Shown piece by piece: positions 9,030 through 56,788 of a stretch of DNA of 64,000 nt. The stretch covers positions 682,001 through 746,000 of the forward strand of contig NC_015738.1 of assembly GCF_000270285.1 (NCBI RefSeq). Reading direction: 5' to 3'. The notes under the pieces were generated by a model. That model saw only the letters and a list, made by a program, of their open reading frames with translations. It was not told the origin of the DNA and searched no databases. The translations under genes and the position numbers were made by a program. This DNA is from Eggerthella sp. YY7918. GTDB taxonomy: Bacteria; Actinomycetota; Coriobacteriia; Coriobacteriales; Eggerthellaceae. Every line of letters begins with the position of its first letter. Within the stretch, counting starts at the first letter, position 1.

Positions 9030-9286
9030 CGAAGCTGAGCGATCTTCCTAACATTGGCGCGCATGCCGAGCAGCAGCTTACCGAGGTGGGGATAACCACC
9101 GCTGAAGATCTTCTTGCGATCGGCGCTGAGCAAGCCTGGCTCAAACTGCAAACTATCGACCCCGGCGTATGCATTATGCAACTCTACGACCTCGAGGGCG
9201 CCGTGCAAGGCATTCCCAAAAAAGCCCTCGACCCCGCTCGCAAACAAGAACTCAAAGCCTTCGTGGCTGCAAACCAACCCGCCTAA
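9026..9286 (+). CDS. TfoX C-terminal domain protein
   Basis: 86 residues, consisting only of a TfoX_C-type helix-hairpin-helix domain: LSDLPNIGAHAEQQLTEVGI, then TTAEDLLAIGAEQAW and LYDLEGAVQGIP. The N-terminal domain of the competence regulator TfoX/Sxy is absent, as is common for stand-alone copies. The role is unknown; related folds bind nucleic acid. It overlaps the flavodoxin gene by 4 bp. Confidence 0.85.
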   Translation: MTKLSDLPNIGAHAEQQLTEVGITTAEDLLAIGAEQAWLKLQTIDPGVCIMQLYDLEGAVQGIPKKALDPARKQELKAFVAANQPA

Positions 9287-43728: not shown

Positions 43729-45735
43729 TCACCCCTTCATGCGCTCAAGTTTACGGTAGAGCGTACTGCGAGACATGCCCATGTCGCGGGCGACGAGCGA
43801 TTTGTTGCCGCGGTGCTCAATAAGGAGTTGGCGTATGCGGTCGGCCTCGTACTTCTCATAGGTAAGCTCCGGTGAAAGCGCGTGTTCAGGGGGTAGCATT
43901 TCCCTGGTCGGAGAGGCGCTCTGCGTCGGTTGCGATCCCGCCCCTAAAAGCATTTCGACCACATCCGGCGGCATCGAATCGATGGTCAGTTCGGACGTAG
44001 TGCTCACGTTGACGCAGCGTTCAAGAATATTGCGAAGCTCACGAAGGTTCCCGGGCCAGGTATAGCGCGAAAAGAGTTCGATAACCTCAGGCGCTGCCGT
44101 CGTGATGTTCTTATCAAGACGCACCGATAGATTGGTAAGGAAGTGTTCAACGAGCATTTCCATATCGCCCGGCCGGTCGCGTAACGACGGTAATTCAAGA
44201 TGGAGCACATTGAGACGGAAGTACAGGTCAAGTCGAAATGTGTTTTGATGCACGCATTCCCATAGGTCTTTGTTCGTGGCGGCGATTATGCGAACATCGA
44301 GCTTGAGAAATTTCTTGCTGCCGATGCGCGATACCACGCCGTCTTCCAAAAAGCGCAACAAAAAGCTTTGCATATCGAGGGGCATTTCGGCAATCTCGTC
44401 AAGAAAGACCGTCCCGCCGTTCGCTTGCTCAAACTTTCCGGGTGCGCCGCCTTTGCGCGCGCCGGTAAACGCACCGTCTTCGTAGCCAAACAGCTCGCTT
44501 CCAATAAGCTCCTTGGGGACGGCGCCGCAGTTAATGGGGATAAAAGGCGACTTCCTGCGAGCGCTTGCATTATGAATGGCCTGCGCAAACATTTCTTTAC
44601 CGGTGCCGCTTTCGCCGGTGATAAGAACGTTGCTGGGACTTGCTGCCGCGCAGGCGGCCGTCTCTTTTGCCGATCGAAATGCCGCGGCGTTTCCCTTGAG
44701 GTCGTTAAAGGTAAACATGGCAGATTTCGACGGCTCGTTGCGTCCGGATTGCTGCGAGGCGATGGTGATCTTGAGCCCCGCGATCGATCCGTCATCTTCG
44801 CGAATGTGCTGACAATTCACAGGATAAAAATGGCTTTCACCCCGTTTGTTCGTAACAAAAATTTCAGGAGGGACATGAGCTCGCCCTTTAAGGTTTGCCA
44901 GATACGGTTCGAGTTCGGGCATAAACGACACAAGGGGAACGCCGTCAGACGATGAAGGGGCATGTCCGAACTCCTGTTGGAACAGCCGGTCGGCGAATAC
45001 CACCTCGCCATGGTTGTTGACGAGGATAAAAGCATCGGGGCTTGTGTGGGCTGACTTTTCCAACAGGCCGATGCGCTGCTCAATGACGGGATAGAGCAGT
45101 CGATTTTTAAAAACAAAGTCTTCTACGCTGAGTGCATAGCACAACGTTTTGTGCATCTGGTCCGTCAGGCGCTCAAGGGGAACGAGGGCAACGTTTATCG
45201 TTGCAAAGTTCGATGATTCTTGTACGCCGAAGCGTGCGTAACAGGCATAGTCGCACAAGATGTCGAGATAATTTTCCTGGCCGATACGTACGAACGTCTC
45301 AAAAGGCGTTTTGCGGGCAAGGCTCGCTGCGGTAATGCCGACGTTGTCTTCCGAAAGCACGGTACCCAGGCGCAGTCCTCGCGCTTTGAGTTCGTCGAGA
45401 AGCGTTCGATCGCCACCTTTTGAAAACACGGTCAGTTCTTCGTTGAGGTAAAACAGCGCAGCACCTTGGCTGCCAAGGAAATCCTTTCGTGTTTCGTAGT
45501 ATTCCTTGAGGTAGGCGAGGTGGGTGAAATGCTGGCGATCGAGGTCATCAAAAATGTTCAAGTTGCGCGTTGACTCGTCGATGCTCTTCATATGCCGATC
45601 GACGGAAAGAGCGGCAGATCGGATCCATTCGTCGCAGAGGTGGGCATAAGAGCCGTTCTTTGCAGAAGTGTCTCCGGCTAGCACCCGTTCCTTAAGCGAG
45701 CGAATCGTTGCATCGTCGTAGCGAGCGATATCCAT
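43729..45735 (-). CDS. Sigma-54-dependent transcriptional activator (AcoR-like)
   Basis: 668 residues. The N-terminal half holds a GAF-like region (about 60-215) and a PAS domain (about 235-340; [20 protein letters not shown]). The AAA+ domain has Walker A GESGTGKE, the sigma-54 contact loop GAFTGA, Walker [14 protein letters not shown] and the R-finger region. A Fis-type helix-turn-helix closes the protein ([18 protein letters not shown]). It would drive open-complex formation at the two -24/-12 promoters of the island. It is divergent from the first of these, with a tandem binding array between. Confidence 0.95.
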
Positions 45736-45762
45736 AGGTCCCCCTCAGTATTCGCAATGTGC

Positions 45763-45817
45763 TACATAATAGAACAATTCGATACAGAATGAAACAACAT
45801 GAGACAAAACAGAACAT
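45763..45817 (+). promoter_or_regulatory. Tandem 20-bp upstream activating array
   Basis: Three related 15-mers start exactly 20 bp apart: TACATAATAGAACAA (45763), TACAGAATGAAACAA (45783) and GACAAAACAGAACAT (45803). They lie about 110-165 bp upstream of the predicted sigma-54 start and in front of the activator gene. Spacing of two helical turns suits a multimeric enhancer-binding protein, and the position would also allow autocontrol. Confidence 0.65.
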
Positions 45818-45900
45818 CATCTGTCGTATATATTTGACAACACGCACCCATGACCGAACAAAAAGGCCTTGCACCGCCTGTTTTTTCTGGCAATTGGATT

Positions 45901-45917
45901 TGGCCACGGTTTTGCAT
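45901..45917 (+). promoter_or_regulatory. Sigma-54 promoter 1 (-24/-12)
   Basis: TGGCCACGGTTTTGCAT: the GG (45902-45903) and GC (45914-45915) dinucleotides are separated by the required 10 bp. Predicted start near 45927. It precedes the first SLC13 permease gene. Confidence 0.88.
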
Positions 45918-45967
45918 GGAAAAGAAGTAAGGGGATGTCCGCGGAGAGGGAAGGGCGGTGCGCACTC

Positions 45968-47245
45968 GTGTCGCAAGCTATCATCGCGCTCGTCATTTTA
46001 GTTGTCATCATGGTTTTGTTCATTACGGAAGCCTTGCCTCTGGCGGTGACCGCACTGCTGGGCGCCGTGGCTATGGCTGTGTTTGGCGTTATCGATTTCA
46101 GTCAGGCTTTTGCCGGCTTCGGAAGCGATACGCTCATGATGGTGGCAGGCATGCTCATCATTGGCCAGGCCGTGTACGAATCAGGCGTGGTCGATCGCAT
46201 GGGAGGGCTCCTGTACAAAATCGTATCGCTGGGAGAGCGTTCATCTATCGCGCTTGTTTCCTGCGTTGCGGGTGTATTGTCGGCATTTATGAGCAATACC
46301 GCCATCGTCGCCTCTATTTTGCCCATGGTCGACTCGCTTGCGGAATCGAGTGGGAAGAGGTCGCTGCGTACGGGGCTTGCCATGTCGGTGGGGGCTGCGG
46401 CAATTCTTGGAGGTAGCCTCACCCTGGTGGGATCGACGCCCCAGCTGGTGGCGCAGGGCATCCTTGAGAGCGCGGGGGAGGAGACGCTCGGTTTCTTCAC
46501 CTTGCTCAAGGGGGCTTTGCCGCTGTTTGTGATCGGCCTCGTTTACTACGCCACGATAGGGCGCCGTTTGCTGATGAAGTGCACTGTCGCCTCTGCGCAT
46601 GACGAAACGCAGGCGGCCTCGCCCGTCGCCGCTATCGAAGCGCCGGCAAAAACGACAAAGAAGGCTGCCATTACGGCATTGACCTTTCTGCTGTGCGTCG
46701 TGGGATTTGTCGCCGGCGTATGGACGGTAGGCACCGTGGCCATTGCAGGAGCGCTCTTTCTCATCATTACGCGCTGTATCGATCTGACAAGCGTAGTGAG
46801 AAACGTCGATTGGTCGGCGGTGGTCATTCTTGGCGGATCGCTGGGATTCTCGGCCGGACTTGAGGAATCGGGGGCCGGGGAACTTATCGCGAACGTCATC
46901 ATCGACCTGTGTGGTGGCGCTCTGGCAAACCCGCTTGCCATCTTTGCTGCCATGGTGGTTATCACGGCCGTTCTTTCCAACTTTATGAGCAACACCGCTG
47001 TCGTTGCCATGCTGGTTCCCATGGGTCTTTTCCTTGCCGAGTCGATGGGGTTTAGCCCCATTGCTATGGCGGTGGGCATTGTCTTGGCTGCAAGCGTTTG
47101 CCTTGCCACACCCATCGGCTCTCCGCCTATGACGCTCACGCTCTCCGCCGGGTATCGCTTTGGCGATTACCTCAAAGCGGGCACACCTCTTTGCGTGCTG
47201 CTGGTGGCGGTCATCATCGTGCTTGTGCCGCTGCTTTACACATGA
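45968..47245 (+). CDS. SLC13/ArsB-type permease
   Basis: 425 residues and about 11 membrane segments. Two repeated motifs with SNTA (AFMSNTAIVASILPM and NFMSNTAVVAMLVPM) mark the ion-transporter superfamily, including SLC13-type sodium/carboxylate carriers. The GTG at 45968 is preferred: it lies about 40 bases after the predicted transcription start and yields the family-typical N-terminus. ATG at 45935 would leave only eight bases of leader. First gene under sigma-54 control; likely imports the island's substrate or exports its product. Confidence 0.85.
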   Translation: MSQAIIALVILVVIMVLFITEALPLAVTALLGAVAMAVFGVIDFSQAFAGFGSDTLMMVAGMLIIGQAVYESGVVDRMGGLLYKIVSLGERSSIALVSCVAGVLSAFMSNTAIVASILPMVDSLAESSGKRSLRTGLAMSVGAAAILGGSLTLVGSTPQLVAQGILESAGEETLGFFTLLKGALPLFVIGLVYYATIGRRLLMKCTVASAHDETQAASPVAAIEAPAKTTKKAAITALTFLLCVVGFVAGVWTVGTVAIAGALFLIITRCIDLTSVVRNVDWSAVVILGGSLGFSAGLEESGAGELIANVIIDLCGGALANPLAIFAAMVVITAVLSNFMSNTAVVAMLVPMGLFLAESMGFSPIAMAVGIVLAASVCLATPIGSPPMTLTLSAGYRFGDYLKAGTPLCVLLVAVIIVLVPLLYT

Positions 47246-47280
47246 GCGCGGCTGAGAGGCGAAGGCACTCAAACAGGATC

Positions 47281-47297
47281 TGGCCACGATTTTGCAT
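47281..47297 (+). promoter_or_regulatory. Sigma-54 promoter 2 (-24/-12)
   Basis: TGGCCACGATTTTGCAT, differing from promoter 1 in one base, with GG (47282-47283) and GC (47294-47295) 10 bp apart. Predicted start near 47307, 58 bp before etfB. The flanks GGAT and GGAA are also shared with promoter 1. Confidence 0.88.
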
Positions 47298-47364
47298 GGA
47301 ATGAAGGTAGGAAGTCCGCAACACGAAGGAGATGCGGGGTAAACGAGGAGAAAGGACATGAGCT

Positions 47365-48123
47365 ATGGCAGACGTGCTGGTGGGCTTTAAATGGGTGCTC
47401 GATGAAGCCGACGTGCGCATAGACGATGACTTATCTGTCGATTTTAGCAAGGCGAAACGCAAGATCAGCGACTACGACAAAAACGCGATTGAGACGGGTC
47501 GACGGATTGCCGAACAGATGCAGGGCAATGCCGTGGGGGTATCGTGCGGTCCCGACGAGACGCGGAAAGGGTTTGTCGATGCCCTTGCGCGCGGCCTCGA
47601 CGAGGGCGTGTGGGTAAAAACTGCCGAGCTTGCGTCGGCGCAAGTTGCTGCGCGAGCCATCGCTCACGTTGCCCGCCAGCGAGACGCAGCGCTCGTTATC
47701 TGCTCGGAAGGATCAAGCGACGATTACGCGCGTCAGACGGGCTCTCGCGTGGGCGCGCTGCTCGACTGGCCGGTCGCCACATCGGTGAATGTCGTTGAAA
47801 TTGAAGAAGACGCCGTTGTTGTACACCGCCGCATGGAGGGATGCGAGCAGGTAGTGCGCATGGCGCTGCCTGCCGTGGTGTCGGTCTTGCCCGAGGCAGA
47901 TCCCGCTCCTATTCCCGGCCTAAAGGCAGTGCTTGCCGCCAAGAAAAAGCCCGTCGATGAATTGAGCGCCGAAGAGCTGGGTGTTGATGAAACGGCGGGC
48001 AGCACGCTCAAAAACATGAGCGGCTATGCAAACGATCGTAAAAATGTGCTGATTGAGGGCGACTCCGCAGCTGACAGCGTGCAGAAGCTTATCGAGGCGC
48101 TCAAGAAGGAAGGAGTGCTGTGA
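47365..48123 (+). CDS. Electron transfer flavoprotein beta subunit (FixA-like)
   Basis: 252 residues. The beta-subunit core runs from LVGFKWVLDEADVRIDDD through DYDKNAIETGRRIAE and the AMP/FAD-binding loop CSEGSSDDYARQTGSRVG. With the alpha subunit it carries single electrons to the acyl-CoA dehydrogenase-like enzyme encoded downstream. The start codon lies 10 bases after AAAGGA. It is first in the second sigma-54 transcription unit and overlaps the alpha gene by one base. Confidence 0.93.
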   Translation: MADVLVGFKWVLDEADVRIDDDLSVDFSKAKRKISDYDKNAIETGRRIAEQMQGNAVGVSCGPDETRKGFVDALARGLDEGVWVKTAELASAQVAARAIAHVARQRDAALVICSEGSSDDYARQTGSRVGALLDWPVATSVNVVEIEEDAVVVHRRMEGCEQVVRMALPAVVSVLPEADPAPIPGLKAVLAAKKKPVDELSAEELGVDETAGSTLKNMSGYANDRKNVLIEGDSAADSVQKLIEALKKEGVL

Positions 48124-49031
48124 TGGCTGGGGTGTTCGTATTCGGTTCCACGCCCGACGTGGCGTCCGAAATGCTTGCCTGTGTGCAGGAAGCTGGTCAA
48201 AAGGGCATCGTCATCACAACGGGCGGTCAGGACGTGCAGGATTATCGCAACCTCGCGTGCGAGAGCGTTATACATATTCAGGGCGGAAGCCCTCTGCCCG
48301 AAGCGTATGGGCGCGATATCGCTGCCGTTCTCAAAGAGCAGGGGGCGCAGGTATTTGTGGTGGGAGGCGACACCACCGGTCGCGATGTGGCGGCTCGCGT
48401 TGCCGGAGTGCTCGATGCTCCTATGATGAGCGAGGCGACGAACCTCGCTATCAACGAAGAGGAGACGACAGGCGAACGCCTCGCCTATGGCGGTGCCGTT
48501 GTGCGTCAAGAAGGCATGGAAGGCTTTGGTGTCGTAAGTGTCGCCCCGGGTGCGTGGGCTCCCCTTGACAAGAGCGACGTCGAAGCGCCCGTGAGCGTTG
48601 TCGCAGGGTCGCCTGACACGCGGATGCAGCTCACCGAAGTTCTGCCGCTCGAGAAATCAGGTGTCGATCTCACAAAAGCCGAACGTATCGTGTGCGCAGG
48701 CATGGCCTTTTCAACGCGCGAAGAGCTGGAAACCGCCTTCCATTTGGCCGATGCGCTCGATGCCGAGGTGGGCTGCTCGCGCGGGCTTGCCGAAGACCGC
48801 CAGTGGTTCTCGGAATACATTGGACTTTCCGGTGTGCAGGTAGCGCCAAAACTCTACGTAGGCTTGGGCATTTCGGGCCAGGTCCAACATACCGTGGGTA
48901 TTCGCGGGGCGAACATAGTCGTCGCCATCAACAAAGATCCTTCAGCCCCCTTGTTCTCGAACTGCGATTACGGCGTTGTCGGCGATCTGTTCGACGTCGC
49001 AGAAGCGTTTTCAGCGGCGCTCGGAAAATAG
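48123..49031 (+). CDS. Electron transfer flavoprotein alpha subunit (FixB-like)
   Basis: 302 residues. The N-terminal domain pairs with the beta subunit. The C-terminal FAD domain shows ERIVCAGMAFSTREELE, CSRGLAEDRQWFSEYIGLSG, YVGLGISGQVQHTVGIRG and VAINKDPSAPLFSNCDYG, the conserved ETF-alpha pattern. It belongs with the CaiA-like reductase here. No FixC/FixX-type quinone oxidoreductase is in the island, so the electron donor must be encoded elsewhere. Confidence 0.93.
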   Translation: MAGVFVFGSTPDVASEMLACVQEAGQKGIVITTGGQDVQDYRNLACESVIHIQGGSPLPEAYGRDIAAVLKEQGAQVFVVGGDTTGRDVAARVAGVLDAPMMSEATNLAINEEETTGERLAYGGAVVRQEGMEGFGVVSVAPGAWAPLDKSDVEAPVSVVAGSPDTRMQLTEVLPLEKSGVDLTKAERIVCAGMAFSTREELETAFHLADALDAEVGCSRGLAEDRQWFSEYIGLSGVQVAPKLYVGLGISGQVQHTVGIRGANIVVAINKDPSAPLFSNCDYGVVGDLFDVAEAFSAALGK

Positions 49032-49103
49032 GCTTGAGGTTGATTGCGGGGTAAGGGACGTGCAAAAGGCGCGTCTGGACATAGCGAGAGAAGGAGGAAA
49101 GCG

Positions 49104-50363
49104 ATGAGGGACAATCTGATCACTGAGAAGTACGGCCCGTTGCACGGGGTTCGCGTGATGCTGACAGGCGTCGCCTTCGCCGGCCCGTTTGCGGCGCGCT
49201 GGCTGGGCGACATGGGCGCCGAGATCATCAAGATTGAGATTCCGGGGATGGGAGACACGTCGCGCATCGGACGTCGTGTCGGCGAAGCGGGCGTGGTGCC
49301 GAAATGGATTAGCCTCGGGCGCAACATGAACAGCTTCGAGTTCAATATGAACTTCGACAAGTGCCCGGAATCGAAGCAGGTATTCGAAGACCTCGTAAAA
49401 GAATGCGACATCTGGATCAACAGCGTGCCGAACATCGGCAAGCACGGCGCAACCGACGAGGTGGCGTTCGCGGCGAACCCCAAGCTGGTTATTGCGCATA
49501 TTACAGGATATGGCCTTCCTGAAAATGGCGGCGACGAGCGTCTGCTTGGTCGCCCCAGCGTCGACCCGGTCGCACAGGCATTCAGCGGGCTGGCCGCGCT
49601 TCAAGGCATGCCAGACGGCCCGTATCTTACGGCCAATCCTATCGTGGCCGACATCGTGACGGCTCACGTGGCGGCATGCGGTTCGTTGGCGGCCTACATC
49701 AACGCGCAGCAAACCGGCAAAGGCCAGGTTGTCGACACCACGCTGTATGAAAGCGCGGCGTACCTGATGAGCTATCACTGGTGTTCGCAGCTTAACGGCG
49801 AGGGCCTGTACAAGCGCTCCGGCCCGCTCAACCAGCTATGGCGTCCCTTCGGTTACTACGAGTGCAAAGACGGCGAGTGGGTAGCCGTAGGCGTGTGGGG
49901 TCTTGGCATTTGGCAGAAGTTCTGCGATCTCATGGGCGTGAGCGTGGAGGACTTCCCCTACATGGCCACCTGCGGTCAAGAGGATCCGGAAAAAGTGAAA
50001 CAGATGGATGCCATCTGGCAGGAGTATCTCGACACCCATACCGCAGTCGAAGTGGAAACGGCCTTCATGGAGGCGGGCATGCCCACCTCGAAGCTCAATA
50101 ACGCCGACGACGCCTATCGTCATCCCCATTGGCAGTCGCGCGGCGACTTTATCAAGATCAAGGACGTGACTTCGGGCGACGACTTTGTCGATATTGCCAC
50201 GTCTCCCAAGTTTATCGGTACGCCCTGCAACGTCTACAAGGGTGCTCCGCTACTTGGTCAGGAAAGCGATCGCATCATGAAAGAGATTCTCGGCTATGAC
50301 GATGAGCGCATCGAAGCGCTTAAAGAAAGCGGGTCGGTGGCGGCTTCGCTCATCACGAAGTGA
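49104..50363 (+). CDS. Family III CoA-transferase (CaiB/BaiF-like)
   Basis: 419 residues. It has the CaiB-type opening GPLHGVRVMLTGVAFAGPFA, then WLGDMGAEIIKIEIPGMGD, and a conserved Asp in RPSVDPVAQAFSGL that would carry the CoA as an anhydride intermediate. Such enzymes move CoA from a product thioester to the incoming acid, saving ATP. AAGGAGG precedes the ATG at 49104. The neighbours are a CaiA-like dehydrogenase and a CaiC-like ligase, the carnitine-pathway set, but without CaiD or CaiT. Confidence 0.92.
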   Translation: MRDNLITEKYGPLHGVRVMLTGVAFAGPFAARWLGDMGAEIIKIEIPGMGDTSRIGRRVGEAGVVPKWISLGRNMNSFEFNMNFDKCPESKQVFEDLVKECDIWINSVPNIGKHGATDEVAFAANPKLVIAHITGYGLPENGGDERLLGRPSVDPVAQAFSGLAALQGMPDGPYLTANPIVADIVTAHVAACGSLAAYINAQQTGKGQVVDTTLYESAAYLMSYHWCSQLNGEGLYKRSGPLNQLWRPFGYYECKDGEWVAVGVWGLGIWQKFCDLMGVSVEDFPYMATCGQEDPEKVKQMDAIWQEYLDTHTAVEVETAFMEAGMPTSKLNNADDAYRHPHWQSRGDFIKIKDVTSGDDFVDIATSPKFIGTPCNVYKGAPLLGQESDRIMKEILGYDDERIEALKESGSVAASLITK

Positions 50364-50402
50364 TGTTCGCGCCAATGCGGACACGAAACGAAAGGAAGCG
50401 AT

Positions 50403-51539
50403 ATGGAGCTGACTGAAAACCAAGAGATGTATCTCAAAATTCTCGATGAATTTATTGAACAGGAGGTGGAGCCGCGCCTTAAAGAGCTTGATACGGTAGA
50501 TGAGTATCCGTTCTGGATGCAGCAGCGCATGGCCGAACTCGGTTTTACCCGCCTTGTCGCGCCTGAGGAGTACGGCGGTCTTGGCGAGAATATGACCACG
50601 TTGCTGCTGTTGATCATGCGAGCCTGCCAGTACAACAACACGCTCGGTTCGCTGTTGAACTGCTCGAATAACGCCAATAAGCTGCTGAGCTTTGCGAACG
50701 AACAGCAAATCGAAACGTTTTTGCCGCGCATCGTCGAAGAAGGCAAGTTCATGGGTATGGCCTATACCGAGCCTTCCGGCGGTTCCGACTCGCGTGCGGT
50801 TCAGACGACCGCGGTGCTTGATGGCGATGAGTGGGTCATCAACGGCACGAAGAGCTTCATCTCCTACCGCAGCGCCGTGGGTAGCTGGCAGGTGAGCGCA
50901 AAGACCGTCGACGAAGAGGGCAATGAGGGTATCAGCGTATTCCTTGTCGACGCTCAGGCTCCCGGCGTGAGCTACGGCGCACACTATGACAAGTTTGGCT
51001 GGTGCGGATCAGACACGGGCGACGTCTACTTCAAGGACTGCCGCGTTCCGAAGTGGAGTGTGTGTGGCGAAATCAACAAGGGTTTGCATGTCTCGCTATC
51101 CACACTTGACGGCGCACGCCTTGTTATCGGCGCCCGTGCCGTGGGATATGCCGAAGGCGCGTTTGAAAAGGCATGGGAGTACGCTTCCACGCGTGAGGCG
51201 TTTGGACGCATGCTCACCGACTTCCAGGCGCTGCAGCATTACTTCGCCGACATGTACAGCGACGCTCAAGTGTGCCGCGGGTACCTTATGCATTTGGCAA
51301 GCGAGCTTGATGCCGGTCGATCCATCGGAAAAGGCGGCTCCATCGCCAAGCTCAAGTGCACCACGATGGCGCAGCAAGTGTGTCAGCGTGCGATGGAAAT
51401 CTGCGGCGGCATGGGTCTTTTGAAGGACTTTGGTCTGTCGCGCTACTACGAAGATGCATGTGTCCTCATCACCGGGGAGGGGACAAGCGAGATTCAAAAG
51501 AACATCATCTTCAAGGCAATCAAGAAGGATCATCGATAA
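50403..51539 (+). CDS. Acyl-CoA dehydrogenase family enzyme (CaiA-like enoyl-CoA reductase)
   Basis: 378 residues, full length. FAD/CoA-site motifs: MAYTEPSGGSDSRAVQTTAV, WVINGTKSFIS, REAFGRMLTDFQALQHYFAD and the C-terminal GEGTSEIQKNI. It is close in type to CaiA, which works as an ETF-linked enoyl-CoA reductase in anaerobes. In this operon it would use ETF electrons to saturate a CoA-bound substrate. The direction (reduction, not oxidation) is inferred from context. Confidence 0.93.
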   Translation: MELTENQEMYLKILDEFIEQEVEPRLKELDTVDEYPFWMQQRMAELGFTRLVAPEEYGGLGENMTTLLLLIMRACQYNNTLGSLLNCSNNANKLLSFANEQQIETFLPRIVEEGKFMGMAYTEPSGGSDSRAVQTTAVLDGDEWVINGTKSFISYRSAVGSWQVSAKTVDEEGNEGISVFLVDAQAPGVSYGAHYDKFGWCGSDTGDVYFKDCRVPKWSVCGEINKGLHVSLSTLDGARLVIGARAVGYAEGAFEKAWEYASTREAFGRMLTDFQALQHYFADMYSDAQVCRGYLMHLASELDAGRSIGKGGSIAKLKCTTMAQQVCQRAMEICGGMGLLKDFGLSRYYEDACVLITGEGTSEIQKNIIFKAIKKDHR

Positions 51540-51560
51540 TACCGAGGATAAGGGGAAACC

Positions 51561-52967
51561 ATGGAATTCTCAGTAAAGAAGATCGTGTTTCTCGCCATTG
51601 CCGTGGTTGCAGGCGTGGGACTGGCGATCATCCCTCCTCCCGAGGGACTTGAGGTGTCGAGCATGCAGGTGCTCGGTATTTTGTTGGCTGCTGTAGTTTT
51701 ATGGGCTGGTCAGGTGTTTCCTGAGGCGGCTACCGCTATCATCATGAGCGTATTGTTTATTGTGGTGGCGAAGGTGCCTATCGATACGTCGCTTTCGGCG
51801 TTTTCCGGAACAACGTTTTGGCTGCTGGTGGCAGCGTTTGGTCTCGGTGCTGCCATCAAGGAATGTGGCTTGCTGGAGCGTATTTCCATCTTGCTTCTGC
51901 GGCTGTTCCCGAAAAGCTATAAGGGCCAGGTACTCGGCCTGTCGGCTGTGACCACCATCACCTCGCCGGTCATTCCCAGTAAAGCGGCCAAGTGCAGTAT
52001 TCTTTCTCCGCTTACTCGTGGCATCAGCGAGGCTATGGGTTACAAGAACGAGGGCAAGGAAGCGACTGGCCTGTTCCTTTCGTACTATTCGGCCATTTGC
52101 TATTCGCCCGCTATGTTCATTACCGCGTCGGTTACAACTGCGGCCTTGGTAGGCATGTACTCGCCGGAAATCCAAGCGCAGTACACGATGGTGGTTTGGG
52201 CGCTGTACGCCGCGCCGTGGCTCATTCTCATGTTCTTGGGCAACTACTTCTACATTAGCCGTCGTTATCGTCCCGCTTCGGGCAACAAGCTTGACGTAAG
52301 CTTCCTCGACCAGCGCCTTGCAGACTTGGGTCCCTGGACGAAAAAAGAGAAGATCATGGGCGTGGTCATGATTCTGACCATCCTCATGTGGGTGTTTAAG
52401 AGCCAGCTGGGCATCCCCGAGTATGCTGCTGTTCTGTTCGCCCTGGTTGCGGCTCTCGTGTTCGATATTCTGCCCATCAAAAAGTGGCGTTCGAACGTGG
52501 CTTGGGATTCGCTTATCTTTATCGGCTGCGCCGTAAGCTTGTCAACCGTACTGCCGGCCGTGGGCGTTACCGACTGGCTGGTTGCCGTTGTGGGACCGTA
52601 CACCGCGATGTTCTTCGCAAATCCATTCCTCATGATCGCAGGTTTGGCTGTTCTGACGCTGGCCGTGCGCTTCTTGATTCTGTCCGAGATCGGTTACCTG
52701 TCGGTATTCACCGCTTTCTTGTTCCCGCTCGCCATTGCGGCAGGTGTGAATCCTTGGATCGTTGGTTTCATCATGAACGCATTTGTAATCGCATGGTTCT
52801 TGCCATACCAGAGTTCAGTGTACCTGACAGCTATCCACAGCGCTGGAGACGGATGGGTCACTGAGAAGGCAACGACGATGTATTGCTTTGTGTATTGCGG
52901 AATTGCGCTTATTGCTTCGTTCCTGTCGTACTTCGCTTGGCAGGCTATGGGCATTTGGGGGGTATAG
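51561..52967 (+). CDS. SLC13/DASS-type carboxylate transporter
   Basis: 468 residues, about 12 membrane segments. It belongs to the DASS/SLC13 group (TTFWLLVAAFGLGAAIKECGL; SPVIPSKAAKC; AVSLSTVLPAVGVTDWL), which moves di- or monocarboxylates with sodium or by exchange. It differs from the first permease of the island, so one could import substrate and the other export the reduced acid. RBS AAGGGG precedes the ATG. It sits between the reductase and ligase genes. Confidence 0.9.
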   Translation: MEFSVKKIVFLAIAVVAGVGLAIIPPPEGLEVSSMQVLGILLAAVVLWAGQVFPEAATAIIMSVLFIVVAKVPIDTSLSAFSGTTFWLLVAAFGLGAAIKECGLLERISILLLRLFPKSYKGQVLGLSAVTTITSPVIPSKAAKCSILSPLTRGISEAMGYKNEGKEATGLFLSYYSAICYSPAMFITASVTTAALVGMYSPEIQAQYTMVVWALYAAPWLILMFLGNYFYISRRYRPASGNKLDVSFLDQRLADLGPWTKKEKIMGVVMILTILMWVFKSQLGIPEYAAVLFALVAALVFDILPIKKWRSNVAWDSLIFIGCAVSLSTVLPAVGVTDWLVAVVGPYTAMFFANPFLMIAGLAVLTLAVRFLILSEIGYLSVFTAFLFPLAIAAGVNPWIVGFIMNAFVIAWFLPYQSSVYLTAIHSAGDGWVTEKATTMYCFVYCGIALIASFLSYFAWQAMGIWGV

Positions 52968-53020
52968 CACGCACTGTTCTATAAAAGCCTGTGTCGTCTA
53001 AGCGGAGGACGTGGTACCGA

Positions 53021-54580
53021 ATGTTTCAAGTGGATTACTTTTTGACAAGAAACGCTACGTGTTATCCCGGCAAGCTCGCGATAGCAAGTGCAAACGGTTC
53101 ATTAACTTGGAAGGAACTTGACGAACAGACGACCTGGCTTGCCCAAGCCCTGCAAGGGGAGGGCGTTAAGAAAGGTACCAGGGCGGCAGTACTGTGGCAC
53201 AATTCCATTGAATGGGCGCTCATCTGGTACGCCTGTCAAAGGATTGGGGCGGTGCCCATGCCTCTGAACACGCGACTCCTCCCCGGAGAGATCGCGCATC
53301 AGATGCGGCTCGCCGATTGTACGGTGTTGTTCTGCGCCGCGCGGTTTATTGCGATGGCGCAGAACATCGCTGCCGAGTACACGTTCGATCTGCTTGTGTT
53401 GGAGCAAAAGACAGGCGGCAGCGCCGATTTGATTGAGGGCGCAATTTCGTGGGATGAGCTTTTGTCCCGCGGGTCGCTTGAGCTGCCTTTGGTTGATATT
53501 GAAGAGGACGACGGCGCCGTCATCCTCTTCACCAGCGGAACAACAGGTGAGCCAAAAGGTGTTCTTCGAACGCAGCGTATGGTTCGGGATCATGCGCTTG
53601 TTTTGGCGATGGGTGATGCGGGATCAAGCGATGAAATTATGCTGACCGCATCTCCCTTGTACCACACCGCAGGTTTGCTCTGTATGCTGAAAATGGCGGC
53701 GCTCGGCGGGACGCTTGTGCTCGCCGAGCGTCTTGATCCACCCGTCGTGCTTGCGCTTATCGAACAATATCGTGCTACCCAAGTGATGCTGGTACCGCCC
53801 GTCGTCTATGGACGGCTTGCTGCGTATGAGCGGTGGCGCGACTTCGATTTGTCGAGCGTACGCCAAGTGCTCATGTCGGCAGGGCGTTGCGATCTCGGTT
53901 ATGCGCGCATCGCTTTCATGCTGTTCCCCGAAGCTCGGTTACGGTTTTCGTGGGGATCGACAGAGGCGTGCTCTCTCACCGGCGTCGCCCTTTCTCAGGA
54001 TGAGATCGAAGACGATCCTGAGCTGGTATGTACGGTGGGTTTCGTCAATAGCTTGGTGGAAATTCGTCTGGTTGACGAGAAGGGTGCCGACGTGCCCAGA
54101 GGCAGTGTCGGAGAAGCTATCGTGCGCTCGCCCATGGTGTTCAAGGGGTATCTGGGTGGATCGTCCGATGACGCCTTTATTGATGGATGTTGGCACCGTA
54201 CAGGCGATATGCTCAAACAGGATGAACGGGGTCTGTATTTCCTTGTCGATCGCAAGAAGGACATCATCAAGACCGGTGGCGAGAACGTCTATGCGCTTGA
54301 GGTGGAGCGCGTGCTTTTGCAGCATCCGGCAATTGAAGACTGCGCGGTTGTCGGCGTGCGCGACGAGCGGTTCGAAGAGGGGATTGCCGCAGCCATCAAG
54401 CTTGCGCCCCATGCTTCTCTTGAAGCAGGCGAACTGAGGACCTTCTTTGAGGGGCGTCTGCCGGGATTTAAGAAACCACGCTATTGGGCCATTGTCGATG
54501 AGCTGCCTACTAATAGTGTGGGAAAAGTCCAAAAGGGTACACTGCGCGCGCAAGGCAGATCTTTGTTCTCGCCGCTTTAA
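53021..54580 (+). CDS. Acyl-CoA synthetase/AMP-forming ligase (CaiC-like)
   Basis: 519 residues. Adenylation motifs: ILFTSGTTGEPKGVLRTQR (A3), WGSTEA (A5), WHRTGDMLKQDERGLYFL (A7), DRKKDIIKTGGENVYALEVE (A8) and the catalytic Lys in NSVGKVQKGTL (A10). It loads a carboxylic acid onto CoA with ATP, presumably to start the CoA-transferase cycle. The ATG at 53021 is used; GGAGG lies 13 bases upstream, a rather long gap. Confidence 0.92.
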   Translation: MFQVDYFLTRNATCYPGKLAIASANGSLTWKELDEQTTWLAQALQGEGVKKGTRAAVLWHNSIEWALIWYACQRIGAVPMPLNTRLLPGEIAHQMRLADCTVLFCAARFIAMAQNIAAEYTFDLLVLEQKTGGSADLIEGAISWDELLSRGSLELPLVDIEEDDGAVILFTSGTTGEPKGVLRTQRMVRDHALVLAMGDAGSSDEIMLTASPLYHTAGLLCMLKMAALGGTLVLAERLDPPVVLALIEQYRATQVMLVPPVVYGRLAAYERWRDFDLSSVRQVLMSAGRCDLGYARIAFMLFPEARLRFSWGSTEACSLTGVALSQDEIEDDPELVCTVGFVNSLVEIRLVDEKGADVPRGSVGEAIVRSPMVFKGYLGGSSDDAFIDGCWHRTGDMLKQDERGLYFLVDRKKDIIKTGGENVYALEVERVLLQHPAIEDCAVVGVRDERFEEGIAAAIKLAPHASLEAGELRTFFEGRLPGFKKPRYWAIVDELPTNSVGKVQKGTLRAQGRSLFSPL

Positions 54581-54591
54581 GGCTGCCGGTG

Positions 54592-55911
54592 ATGAAACAA
54601 ACGCAGCGTATCACCCAGAACCTGGGTTTGGCACAGCGCCAGATCCAGGCAATGAATCTGCTGGCAATGTCGACAATTGAATTGGGTACCTACCTTGAGG
54701 AAGTGGCTCTTGAAAACCCCGTCATCGAAGTTATTCAACCGGATATTGAAATGAGTATGCCTCAGGGGCGTGGGCTGTTTTTGCCGGGCGTTCAGGGGGA
54801 TGTTCTGCAGGACGACTGGTTGGACAATAAGCTGATTGACGGAGATGCCGTGGACAAGGAGGCGTACCTTCTTGGACAAGTTGATCTTGGGCGGCTGACG
54901 CGCGATGAGGCCCGTGCGATACGCTACCTTATCGGGATGCTTGACGAGAATGGGTATCTTCTGCAATCCGTAGAACAAGCTGCGCGCTCGCTTGATATTG
55001 ACCGGGTTGTGGTAGCGGCCATGCTGCGTCTCCTTCAGTCGCTTGAGCCGCACGGTATCGGCGCCCGAACGGTGCGCGAAAGCTTGTCGTTGCAATTGGC
55101 AGCGCTTCCCTCCGATAAAGAAGTGGAGATAGCCCTTTCGATCGTTCGCGATCACTTGCCTCTGCTTGCGAAAAATCGTATTCCCGATTTAAAAAGAGCC
55201 TATCCAAAGGTACCTCATCAGGACCTTCTTAAGGCTCTCGAGCTTATCCGCAGTCTTGATCCGCGACCGGGCTCCCTCTTTGCCGTTGATCGCACTCAGT
55301 ATGTGCTTGCCGATGTTATTGTGGAGGATACTCCCGAAGGATTTGAGGTGAAACTTGGACCTGCCGGCGGCTATGACATACGCCTTGACGGTGTGTACCG
55401 CACGCTGGCCAAAGATGCGTCAAATTCGGATACGACAACATGGATTGAAGCCAAATACCGGCAAGCGTATTGGTTGCGTTCGTGCTTGAAACAGCGTCGG
55501 GAGCTTATGCTTGCCATCGTGCAGCAACTGGTACAGCGGCAGAAGGCGTTTTTCTCGTTTGGTCCACGCCACCTTGCCGAAGCGACTATGAGCCAAGTTG
55601 CTGAAGATTTATCGCTCAGCGTTTCTACCGTAAGCCGTGCGGCTAAAGGCACCTATGTGCAGTGTCGCTGGGGTGTGTTTCCGATGCGGTCGCTGTTCTC
55701 CCATTCCTCCATTACGCGATCTGCCGCCAGCGGGGATCCCCGTGTGTTGCTGCGTGAAATTATTGCAGCCGAATGCCAAGAGAAACCCTTGAGCGATCAA
55801 AAAATTGTCGAAGAGTTCGCAAAGCGCGGTGTCGAGTTGTCTCGTAGAACGGTCGCTCGCTATCGCCAAGAACTCGGCATTCCCCCCGCCTCCCAACGCC
55901 GCTATCGCTAG
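54592..55911 (+). CDS. rpoN: RNA polymerase sigma-54 factor
   Basis: 439 residues. Region I is Gln/Leu-rich (LAQRQIQAMNLLAMSTIEL), followed by a short acidic region II and the core-binding and helix-turn-helix domains (LSVSTVSRAAKGTYVQC). The RpoN box reads RRTVARYRQELGI, agreeing with the consensus ARRTVAKYRE at all but two positions. It directs polymerase to -24/-12 promoters in need of an ATP-driven activator. It lies 11 bp after the ligase gene, so it may be co-transcribed with its own target operon. Sigma-54 is rare in Actinobacteria. Confidence 0.96.
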   Translation: MKQTQRITQNLGLAQRQIQAMNLLAMSTIELGTYLEEVALENPVIEVIQPDIEMSMPQGRGLFLPGVQGDVLQDDWLDNKLIDGDAVDKEAYLLGQVDLGRLTRDEARAIRYLIGMLDENGYLLQSVEQAARSLDIDRVVVAAMLRLLQSLEPHGIGARTVRESLSLQLAALPSDKEVEIALSIVRDHLPLLAKNRIPDLKRAYPKVPHQDLLKALELIRSLDPRPGSLFAVDRTQYVLADVIVEDTPEGFEVKLGPAGGYDIRLDGVYRTLAKDASNSDTTTWIEAKYRQAYWLRSCLKQRRELMLAIVQQLVQRQKAFFSFGPRHLAEATMSQVAEDLSLSVSTVSRAAKGTYVQCRWGVFPMRSLFSHSSITRSAASGDPRVLLREIIAAECQEKPLSDQKIVEEFAKRGVELSRRTVARYRQELGIPPASQRRYR

Positions 55912-55928: not shown

Positions 55929-56285
55929 TCAGGTTTGGTCAAGTCCTGTATAGATCGCGATCATACCCATGACGCGTTCCATGGTGTCGTCGTCCAGCGC
56001 TCCAATGTGACGCAAAACTCCATGCGACTCGTGCCACCCGAGATCAAGCGAGCGTAGCCCCTCCACCTGTACGAAACCAGCAATGGGATTGCCGTCTGCG
56101 ATGCGTACGTGCAGAGGAAACCCATTGTCGCTGGAGGTGATGGGCGCAACGAGAGTAAGCGCTGTCATGTTGTTGACGCGAAAGGGGCTGATAACCACTG
56201 CATAGTGCCATCCTGCCGGCTCATGGCGGTGGGAGGGGTCAAAGTTCAGGTAGACGACATCACCGTGTTCAAAGATGCTCAACAT
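55929..56285 (-). CDS. MazF/PemK-family toxin
   Basis: 118 residues. The MazF fold is visible in FEHGDVVYLNFDPSHRHEPA, WHYAVVISPFRVNNMTALTL, APITSSDNGFPLHV and GFVQVEGLRSLDLG. Such toxins are sequence-specific ribonucleases. ATG at 56285 is preferred for its GGGAGG; a TTG six bases upstream is possible. It overlaps the antitoxin gene. It marks the right border of the island next to rpoN, with convergent ends 18 bp apart. Confidence 0.88.
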   Translation of the reverse strand: MLSIFEHGDVVYLNFDPSHRHEPAGWHYAVVISPFRVNNMTALTLVAPITSSDNGFPLHVRIADGNPIAGFVQVEGLRSLDLGWHESHGVLRHIGALDDDTMERVMGMIAIYTGLDQT

Positions 56286-56566
56286 CCCCAAACCTCCCGC
56301 TCTGCACCATGAAGCCCGTCTGCATCGTCATTCCAAGGGTCGTTAGTTGAGCGGGACCCATTCCATGCTTTTTGAACCTCTTCGAAGGAAATAGTTTTAC
56401 GTTTTACTTTGCGGTGCGGCTGGTCTTGAAGGCGAAAAATGATCGCTCCAGGAAGATATTCGACTTCATAGAGGTCGCCGATCGCAGTTCCGGTTATTTC
56501 CATGCCTGCCTTTGTCACGTGGAATCCCTGACCCGTTCCCCATTGAGAAAGTTTCGTCGTTGTCAT
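56279..56566 (-). CDS. MazE/AbrB-type antitoxin
   Basis: 95 residues. The swapped-hairpin N-terminus reads TTKLSQWGTGQGFHVTKAGM, then EITGTAIGDLYEVEYLPGAI, of the SpoVT/AbrB class. The C-terminal tail is charged and ends EREVWGC. ATG at 56566 follows TCGGAGG. The 15-bp palindrome upstream at 56602-56637 should be its operator. It overlaps the toxin gene, the usual order for MazEF. Confidence 0.85.
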   Translation of the reverse strand: MTTTKLSQWGTGQGFHVTKAGMEITGTAIGDLYEVEYLPGAIIFRLQDQPHRKVKRKTISFEEVQKAWNGSRSTNDPWNDDADGLHGAEREVWGC

Positions 56567-56601
56567 AATGCCTCCGAATTTCTGGACGTATGTCAGGTTG
56601 G

Positions 56602-56637
56602 ATGAGGTTGTATATATCATTATATATACAACCTCAT
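56602..56637. promoter_or_regulatory. MazEF operator
   Basis: ATGAGGTTGTATATA (56602-56616), six bases, TATATACAACCTCAT (56623-56637): a perfect 15-bp inverted repeat starting 36 bp before the antitoxin start. Its TATATA core probably overlaps the -10 region. Confidence 0.75.
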
Positions 56638-56788
56638 GTTGGTCAACCGTATAACAAACCTGCCCAGATCGGAGACATATTTGCATCTTGCCTCTATAGA
56701 TGCTCTCGTTCGTGTTCGCGTTGTCTGTGTGGTGCGGATCCGCTTTCCCAATTCTAGCGAGCGCATCTAGCGCATAGATGGCGTGTGT

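Follow-up and report, generated by a model that had tools for sequence, protein, structure and literature searches.

In a 64,000-nucleotide stretch of the genome of Eggerthella sp. YY7918 (contig NC_015738.1, positions 682,001 to 746,000; hereafter the window), positions 43729-55911 hold a putative private sigma-54 regulon: an activator with a GAFTGA loop, five 10-bp repeats and two -24/-12 promoters, followed by an operon in the order SLC13-EtfBA-CaiB-CaiA-SLC13-CaiC-rpoN, with rpoN, the gene for sigma-54, at the 3' end. Pfam searches and pattern scans recovered everything that a preliminary description of this locus had listed (the genes, the GAFTGA motif, the tandem array and both promoters), and all nine island proteins pass Pfam (EBP, two DASS carriers, electron-transfer flavoprotein (ETF) beta and alpha, class III CoA-transferase, acyl-CoA dehydrogenase (ACAD), ligase and sigma-54). 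The activator, EBP1 (43729..45735, minus strand), is divergent from the operon and is an AAA+ protein possessing the Walker A motif, GAFTGA loop (residue 421) and Fis-type helix-turn-helix (HTH) of a bacterial enhancer-binding protein (Sigma54_activat, 224.3 bits, plus HTH_8). In its N-terminal sensor region, residues 80-247 show weak similarity to DhaR (E 1.2e-5).

The remaining features lie on the plus strand. An operator ladder of five RNACA units spaced exactly 10 bp apart (45772..45816), presumed to be EBP1 sites, precedes promoter 1 (45901..45919; TGGCCACGGTTTTGCATGG) by about 85 bp; none of 300 shuffles reached this arrangement, and the region also scored as three 20-bp copies in a separate repeat listing. 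The first SLC13/DASS carrier, VcINDY-like, follows at 45935..47245, its likely start having been moved to the ATG at 45935 because the called open reading frame start at 45869 precedes its own promoter. Promoter 2 (47281..47299; TGGCCACGATTTTGCATGG) then introduces genes for FixA-like ETF beta (47365..48123) and FixB-like ETF alpha (48120..49031), both recognised by Pfam and NCBIfam, the CaiB-like class III CoA-transferase (49044..50363), the acyl-CoA dehydrogenase (50403..51539), the second SLC13/DASS carrier (51561..52967), the AMP-forming, CaiC-like acyl-CoA ligase (52991..54580, likely start at the ATG 53021; Pfam, NCBIfam) and, after a short junction (54581..54588), rpoN (54589..55911). 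The product of this last gene, RpoN1, has an intact 440-aa frame with AID, CBD and DBD domains (Pfam 49.8, 144.3 and 152.7 bits), scores 349.1 bits against TIGR02395 (cut-off 277.35) and carries the RpoN box SRRTVARYRQ, a variant of ARRTVAKYRE.

The two promoters are the sole matches in the window to TGGCCACGNTTTTGCATGG at three or fewer mismatches (0.09 expected), have TGGCCACG[GA]TTTTGCATGG in common with every shared-consensus base kept, and are the only two exact matches to the first 16 bases of TGGCCACGNTTTTGCATGG in the 3.12-Mb genome. A looser pattern, TGGC-N8-TTGCA with one mismatch, showed no enrichment across the window (30 found, 23.8 expected); since the generic -24/-12 pattern is at chance level, only specific promoter dialects were counted as evidence. 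A scan for a sigma-70-like promoter ahead of the operon found none.

The same genome (G000 below, where other G-numbers are comparison genomes and L-numbers are loci) holds two rpoN genes and two activators above 100 bits, each pair inside its own island; two further Pfam activator hits, at only 34.6 and 26.7 bits, were read as Clp-type AAA proteins. The preliminary description had proposed that the island carries its own sigma factor, and had named a single-copy rpoN with many unrelated targets as evidence to the contrary; on copy number the proposal stands, as a search for a second rpoN found one elsewhere in the genome and there are two true activators. This second gene lies at contig positions 352752-354215, and its activator starts 13 bases after it. 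The island around the pair (L009:12792 to L007:16263; contig 337.8-356.3 kb) also contains two CaiB-like genes, MFS carriers, an OYE-type reductase, a hydratase, an acyl-CoA dehydrogenase and a ligase with a metallo-beta-lactamase-like domain attached as a fusion. Its promoter dialect is mostly TGGCAYGN4TTGCT, for which there are seven exact matches in the genome, four of them inside the island (one in coding sequence), and none for the reversed control.

Across the class Coriobacteriia, rpoN was found in 99 of 396 genomes (98 above the Pfam cut-off) and 57 of 153 genera, and within the window's family in 31 of 138 genomes and 14 of 48 genera, so the rarity that the preliminary description had ascribed to sigma-54 does not hold for this class. 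Linkage was followed in 29 family genomes with 32 rpoN genes, the fragment in G250 not being counted and the rpoN genomes G407 and G424 falling outside the check. For 29 of the 32 genes the contig also carries an activator no more than 14 kb away (the exceptions are G274, G359 and G363; in G315 only the N-terminal part is present, at a contig end). The number of activators above 100 bits equals that of rpoN genes in 25 of the 29 genomes, with one extra in G155 and G313 and none in G274 and G359, and seven rpoN-less family genomes have no activator above 100 bits except G030 (107 bits). Two rpoN genes each are found in G000, G200 and G102. In a maximum likelihood tree, whose finer placements are uncertain owing to several long branches, the clade RPON1 comprises the window, G200, G207 and G398 (support 99/93), RPON2 17 rows (98/91) and RPON3 with its relatives 14 rows (99/99), with a deep-lineage clade standing apart. 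The activator adjoins rpoN in all 17 RPON2 genes of the tree (L059 has just the beginning of the activator, where the contig ends). The RpoN box of RPON1 is SRRTVAR[YF]R and that of the deep clade ARRTVAKYR; KRRTVAKYR prevails in RPON2 and SRRTVNKYR in RPON3, and the HTH is likewise mostly clade-specific. Of the activator loops, 35 of which were found in 40 loci, 34 fit G[AS]FTG[AS], L094 being the exception. Those of RPON1 and RPON2 are all GAFTGA save L095 (GAFTGS) and L094 (lost), and those of the RPON3 group are GSFTGA in seven of nine and GAFTGA in two.

The promoters also differ by sigma paralogue, with exceptions. Non-coding DNA upstream of recognised island genes was scanned with [TC]GGC-N8-TGC, which leaves the discriminating bases free. 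RPON1 loci gave eight sites in 4/4 loci (one for the exactly reversed pattern), with C after TGGC in seven and A at -11 in seven; the odd site, at 9129 of reversed L173, overlaps coding sequence. RPON2 loci gave 21 sites in 15/18 loci (reversal 9), 20 with A after TGGC, and with T (17), A (2), G (1) or C (1) at -11. Core RPON3 loci gave 11 sites in 6/8 loci (reversal 2), all 11 with A at both positions; the two other core loci have no dialect site. Divergent RPON3-like loci gave two sites in 2/6 loci (reversal 0), the rpoN-less island none, and the deep clade one site in 1/7 loci (reversal 3), few of its genes being recognised by the reference set. C after TGGC thus occurs in 7/8 RPON1 sites versus 0/32 in RPON2 and core RPON3 (p = 4e-7), and A at -11 in 7/8 RPON1 versus 2/21 RPON2 sites (p = 2e-4), both p values being optimistic since orthologous sites are not independent. 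For the two genomes in which both systems are co-resident, the count at -11 is four A versus six T (p = 0.005), with L007:12628 included and L007:1619 (G at -11, overlapping 1638) and the coding L007:9835 left out.

The preliminary description had proposed a search for the same gene set in relatives, and this returned four more islands, three of them with rpoN. The CaiB-like protein served as query in a pattern-based scan of an 84,980-species collection, in which very near genomes may be missed; this gave three close relatives at 74-77% among the best 80 of 430 matches, the others being at 34% or less. The five islands (the window, G200, which came from the class-wide rpoN survey, L093, L094 and L095) have a single gene order: EBP, then DASS1-fixA-fixB-caiB-caiA-DASS2-caiC-(fixC-fixX)-rpoN. 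The rpoN gene is last in four of the five, and fixC and fixX are found in all four relatives and are missing from the window, where the ligase-rpoN junction marks their place. The complete set, with fixCX and rpoN, is present in G200, L093 (Ca. Rubneribacter avistercoris) and L095 (titled Propionibacteriaceae). Ladder steps in the three other rpoN-bearing islands are mostly 10 bp (some 12, 20 or 21). A second-carrier query across the class found the island in 3/396 genomes (G000, G200 and G207). The gene rpoN1 is the least conserved of the island, at 63/59/38% identity in G200/L093/L095 versus 95/93/80% for the dehydrogenase.

The rpoN-less island, L094 (genome G397), lacks several parts at once. 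As read from its open reading frames, fixCX is followed by guaA, with no rpoN in the island; its activator loop reads GSPAAS, the 10-bp ladder is broken, and the dialect scan of the island gave no -24/-12 site. Where promoter 1 would be expected there is a 12-base remnant, GTTTTGTGGAAT; it equals GTTTTGCATGGAAT, found exactly in G200 and L093, less two bases. Any variant of this kind was seen in 2 of 20,000 shuffles, for a core picked after the match had been seen. A sigma-70-like site, TTGAAA-17-GATAAT (10/12), overlaps the remnant, one of two such sites found where 0.2 were expected; the same scan gave none in three of the other islands and one 9/12 site in G200. The genome retains another rpoN with its own activator, and the island promoters were still not preserved. 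Because the more distant L095 has rpoN, we read L094 as a case of loss, in which the sigma-54 parts look to have gone as a unit and the promoter to have been rewired to sigma-70.

The island lies between dxr and rseP in G000, G200 and G207, the latter two with other sequence alongside. In G112, of the same genus, frr-uppS-cdsA-dxr-rseP-ispG-proS is unbroken with a dxr-rseP gap of about 0.25 kb, and among seven other family genomes the gap is about 1 kb in three, and in four dxr does not occur in the 1.5 kb next to rseP; given these differing gaps, the slot is variable. G250 contains an rpoN1 DNA-binding fragment (L091:9834-10226, 71%) that precedes rseP by about 2 kb, with no other island gene, and no dxr, in the 20 kb read; this is probably the relic of a lost island. 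The claim that the regulon is portable finds support in the syntenic, rpoN-bearing copy in the Propionibacteriaceae metagenome-assembled genome (MAG), and is tempered by the shared dxr-rseP slot of three family genomes and the lack of any sign of recent transfer. A recent transfer between G000 and G200 was considered and rejected, as identity at 4-fold sites is 0.34-0.56 for eight island genes (the first carrier not being compared) versus 0.54 for rseP.

Propionibacteriaceae belong to the class Actinomycetes, a different class from Coriobacteriia (NCBI taxonomy). The L095 genome has one activator above 100 bits and a single rpoN, and its dxr is only 47% identical, compared with 59-83% in five other genomes (G380 gave no match). 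The tetranucleotide correlation of the island is 0.97-0.98 with four other stretches of its own genome (one on the same contig), compared with 0.74-0.88 for the four Coriobacteriia islands. Mis-binning of the L095 island is unlikely given this tetranucleotide fit and the 47% dxr. Given its dxr, its composition, its single rpoN and activator and its placement in another class, the sigma-54 cassette has therefore probably crossed a class boundary together with its operon.

The preliminary description had assigned the gene set to CoA-linked reduction, and Pfam and NCBIfam scores bear this out at the level of type. The dehydrogenase, a proposed enoyl-CoA reductase, is nearest to AcrC and to the Etf-complex dehydrogenases 5ol2 (which we take to be the C. 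difficile Etf complex) and CarC (6fah, 219.5 bits), with the Glu of its EGTS motif aligned; with the catalytic Glu and alongside EtfBA, it has the arrangement of caffeyl-CoA and acryloyl-CoA reductases. The CoA-transferase is nearest to CaiB (E. coli CaiB, 144 bits), with the catalytic Asp (changed in chain 1xvu) aligned; for the ligase the nearest are FadD5 and feruloyl-CoA synthetase. Together, the enzymes fit CoA-linked enoate reduction. Carrier 1 has VcINDY, a sodium symporter, among its best solved relatives (96.9 bits), and carrier 2 is nearest to the plant dicarboxylate transporters DiT1 and DiT2.1, which are exchangers; this suggests uptake and exchange of di- or tricarboxylates. Literature searches for a substrate clue gave nothing usable. 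The island had also been called self-contained, which does not fully hold, as fixCX is missing here and FixC paralogues lie elsewhere in the genome (66, 62 and 35%). A paralogous operon at contig 1.926 Mb (L196:9148-18997) encodes ACAD, CaiB, ligase, DASS, EtfBA and FixCX, and the HTH gene close to it is of LuxR type, not a sigma-54 activator; sigma-54 control therefore belongs to this island and not to the enzyme set. FixCX from 1.926 Mb or 1.685 Mb (FixC 62 and 66%) might serve the window island.

We interpret the island as a private sigma-54 regulon, in which RpoN1 would be a pathway-private factor and not a global regulator, and put the probability of this at roughly 0.7. The reading draws on what the sequence holds directly: the gene content, the promoters, the ladder, two separate sigma/activator pairs in one genome, and the co-conservation and co-absence of the parts. 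EBP1 may sense an acid, or its CoA ester, through the N-terminal region, bind the 10-bp ladder and remodel RNA polymerase carrying RpoN1 at the two same-dialect promoters, switching on the first carrier, enoyl-CoA reductase with ETF, CoA-transferase, second carrier, priming ligase and rpoN1. With rpoN1 inside its own operon, positive feedback from a low basal level would follow. An unsaturated acid, probably di- or tricarboxylic, would be imported and primed with CoA by the ligase, and the enoyl-CoA reduced with ETF electrons; the transferase would then move CoA from product to new substrate, and the second carrier swap product for substrate. In this scheme we infer promoter selectivity, feedback, reaction direction, substrate class and exchange, as well as the electron-sink role and CoA recycling that the preliminary description had proposed. 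More broadly, the relatives suggest that switch, activator and promoters travel and are lost together. We would give even odds that sigma-54, once a global factor, has become in Coriobacteriia a set of heritable, mutually insulated, pathway-private cassettes (sigma, activator and dialect), of which two may share a cell, one has crossed between classes and one has been rewired to sigma-70.

Several observations weigh against interpreting the island in this way. Of the two promoters L095 retains one, and its loop reads GAFTGS; L093, L094 and L095 are all MAGs. At two or fewer mismatches, promoter 1 has 13 genome matches versus nine for the reversed control, so further weak targets are possible. 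No single base defines a dialect, as A at -11 is common to RPON1 and RPON3; T at -11 is missing from 4/21 RPON2 sites, and the 21 RPON2 sites are only about twice the nine of the exactly reversed pattern. Clear dialect sites are absent from L078, from 3/18 RPON2 loci and from the divergent RPON3-like loci, 4/6 of which gave no site at all. On the metabolic side, no island enzyme reaches an NCBIfam equivalog cut-off (AcrC 301.9/640 bits; CaiA, CaiB and CaiC 151.5/540, 211.2/413 and 210.8/651), and the lack of FixCX, which leaves the window island short of a FixABCX set, bears on the electron route.

Were the two sigma-54 proteins interchangeable, specificity would come from activators and operators, as it does in single-rpoN bacteria, and the dialects would be drift within islands. 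The GG-N10-GC core kept in all sites would accord with this, though the search pattern itself imposes that core. We consider this unlikely, as the dialects recur by clade across genera, RpoN box and HTH are mostly clade-specific, G397 has no island promoters despite having another rpoN, and G000, G200 and G102 each retain two rpoN genes. Far less credible is the view of RpoN1 as a relic in decay, with sigma-70 driving the operon: the low conservation of rpoN1 and the G250 fragment point that way, but the frame is intact over three domains, both promoters hold the full shared consensus, and a sigma-70-like promoter was found in the rpoN-less island and not before the window operon.

For the pathway, acyl-CoA dehydrogenases are reversible, and the operon could in principle be oxidative, degrading a saturated acid through the enoyl-CoA instead of serving as a reductive electron sink. 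This is doubtful, given that no hydratase, hydroxyacyl-CoA dehydrogenase or thiolase is found among the nine island proteins and that ligase, transferase and ACAD-Etf together resemble reductive systems. A strict crotonobetaine/carnitine system, which would explain why CaiA-, CaiB- and CaiC-like genes accompany FixAB in the window and FixABCX in the related islands, is a good deal less probable still: the three scores are far below their cut-offs and the carriers are of DASS type. As the preliminary description had noted, no CaiT, CaiD or CaiE type occurs among the nine proteins scanned, CaiT and CaiD not having been sought in the rest of the genome.

Of the characterised pathways, cai-fix crotonobetaine reduction in enteric bacteria likewise combines CaiA, CaiB and CaiC with FixAB (and FixCX, as in the relatives), while the island differs in its two SLC13 carriers, its lack of CaiT/D/E types, its sub-cut-off scores and its sigma-54 control. 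Caffeate reduction by carABCDE of Acetobacterium woodii has in common the ligase, a CoA-transfer step and an ACAD-EtfBA reductase; SLC13 carriers and sigma-54 set the island apart, the CarA transferase type not being compared. The metabolic part thus points to regulated acid or enoate reduction.

For the regulatory part, the closest known system is that of Cereibacter (Rhodobacter) sphaeroides, in which, in the portions of the sources available, RpoN1-NifA, RpoN2-FleQ and RpoN3-AprX form pairs, each of the several rpoN genes studied reportedly having its own activator and gene set, as proposed here. That organism has been called an exception because all RpoN copies studied there pair with a particular activator, the -11 position being one determinant (PMC11999139, in part), and the specificity of RpoN1 and RpoN2 is attributed partly to -11 recognition (PMC11999139; PMC3162934, both in part). 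The window's genome likewise has two rpoN genes, and each is linked to a separate activator, as in a dedicated pair. Unlike in C. sphaeroides, the sigma gene is here encoded with its activator and targets, seemingly inherited and lost with them, and these targets appear to serve the metabolism of acids or enoates rather than nif or flagella. Coriobacteriia fall in the phylum Actinomycetota (NCBI taxonomy), which the available part of a 2011 survey gives, as Actinobacteria, as being without a sigma-54 system (PMC3162934) and that of a 2025 survey as effectively lacking sigma-54 (PMC12316311). In the available part of PMC10269533 the sole mention of RpoN concerns Pseudomonas, and no literature on sigma-54 in Coriobacteriia was found, as judged by titles. 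If the reading of private regulons is correct, these would be naturally evolved, mutually insulated sigma-54/activator/promoter sets in which the origin of promoter selectivity can be tested, and at one promoter the rpoN-less relative seems to preserve the trace of a switch from sigma-54 to sigma-70.

Outside the order, rpoN is single-copy in all listed genomes but G151. The deep Coriobacteriia have rpoN beside an activator (6/7 loci) and a histidine kinase (7/7), and TGGCAC/TGGCAT-type sites in several loci recall those described above, although the rpoN clade is separate and the systems there are of two-component type. TGGTAY-type sites stand immediately before rpoN in five of these seven loci (L066-L072), as if the gene were self-controlled.

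Other islands have contents of their own. RPON3-type islands (L080:8838-19606 and L198:627-13198) encode MFS carriers, a molybdopterin oxidoreductase and a GSFTGA activator, with a ferredoxin-like protein and an amidohydrolase additionally in L198. The second of the two rpoN-activator pairs of G102 (L078:7396-14403) lies among CaiB-like and OYE-type genes and has a very divergent rpoN. In the window, a PemK/MazF-like toxin gene (55929-56291, minus strand) lies directly downstream of rpoN, and it and a small unassigned gene (56279-56686) both lie between the island and rseP.

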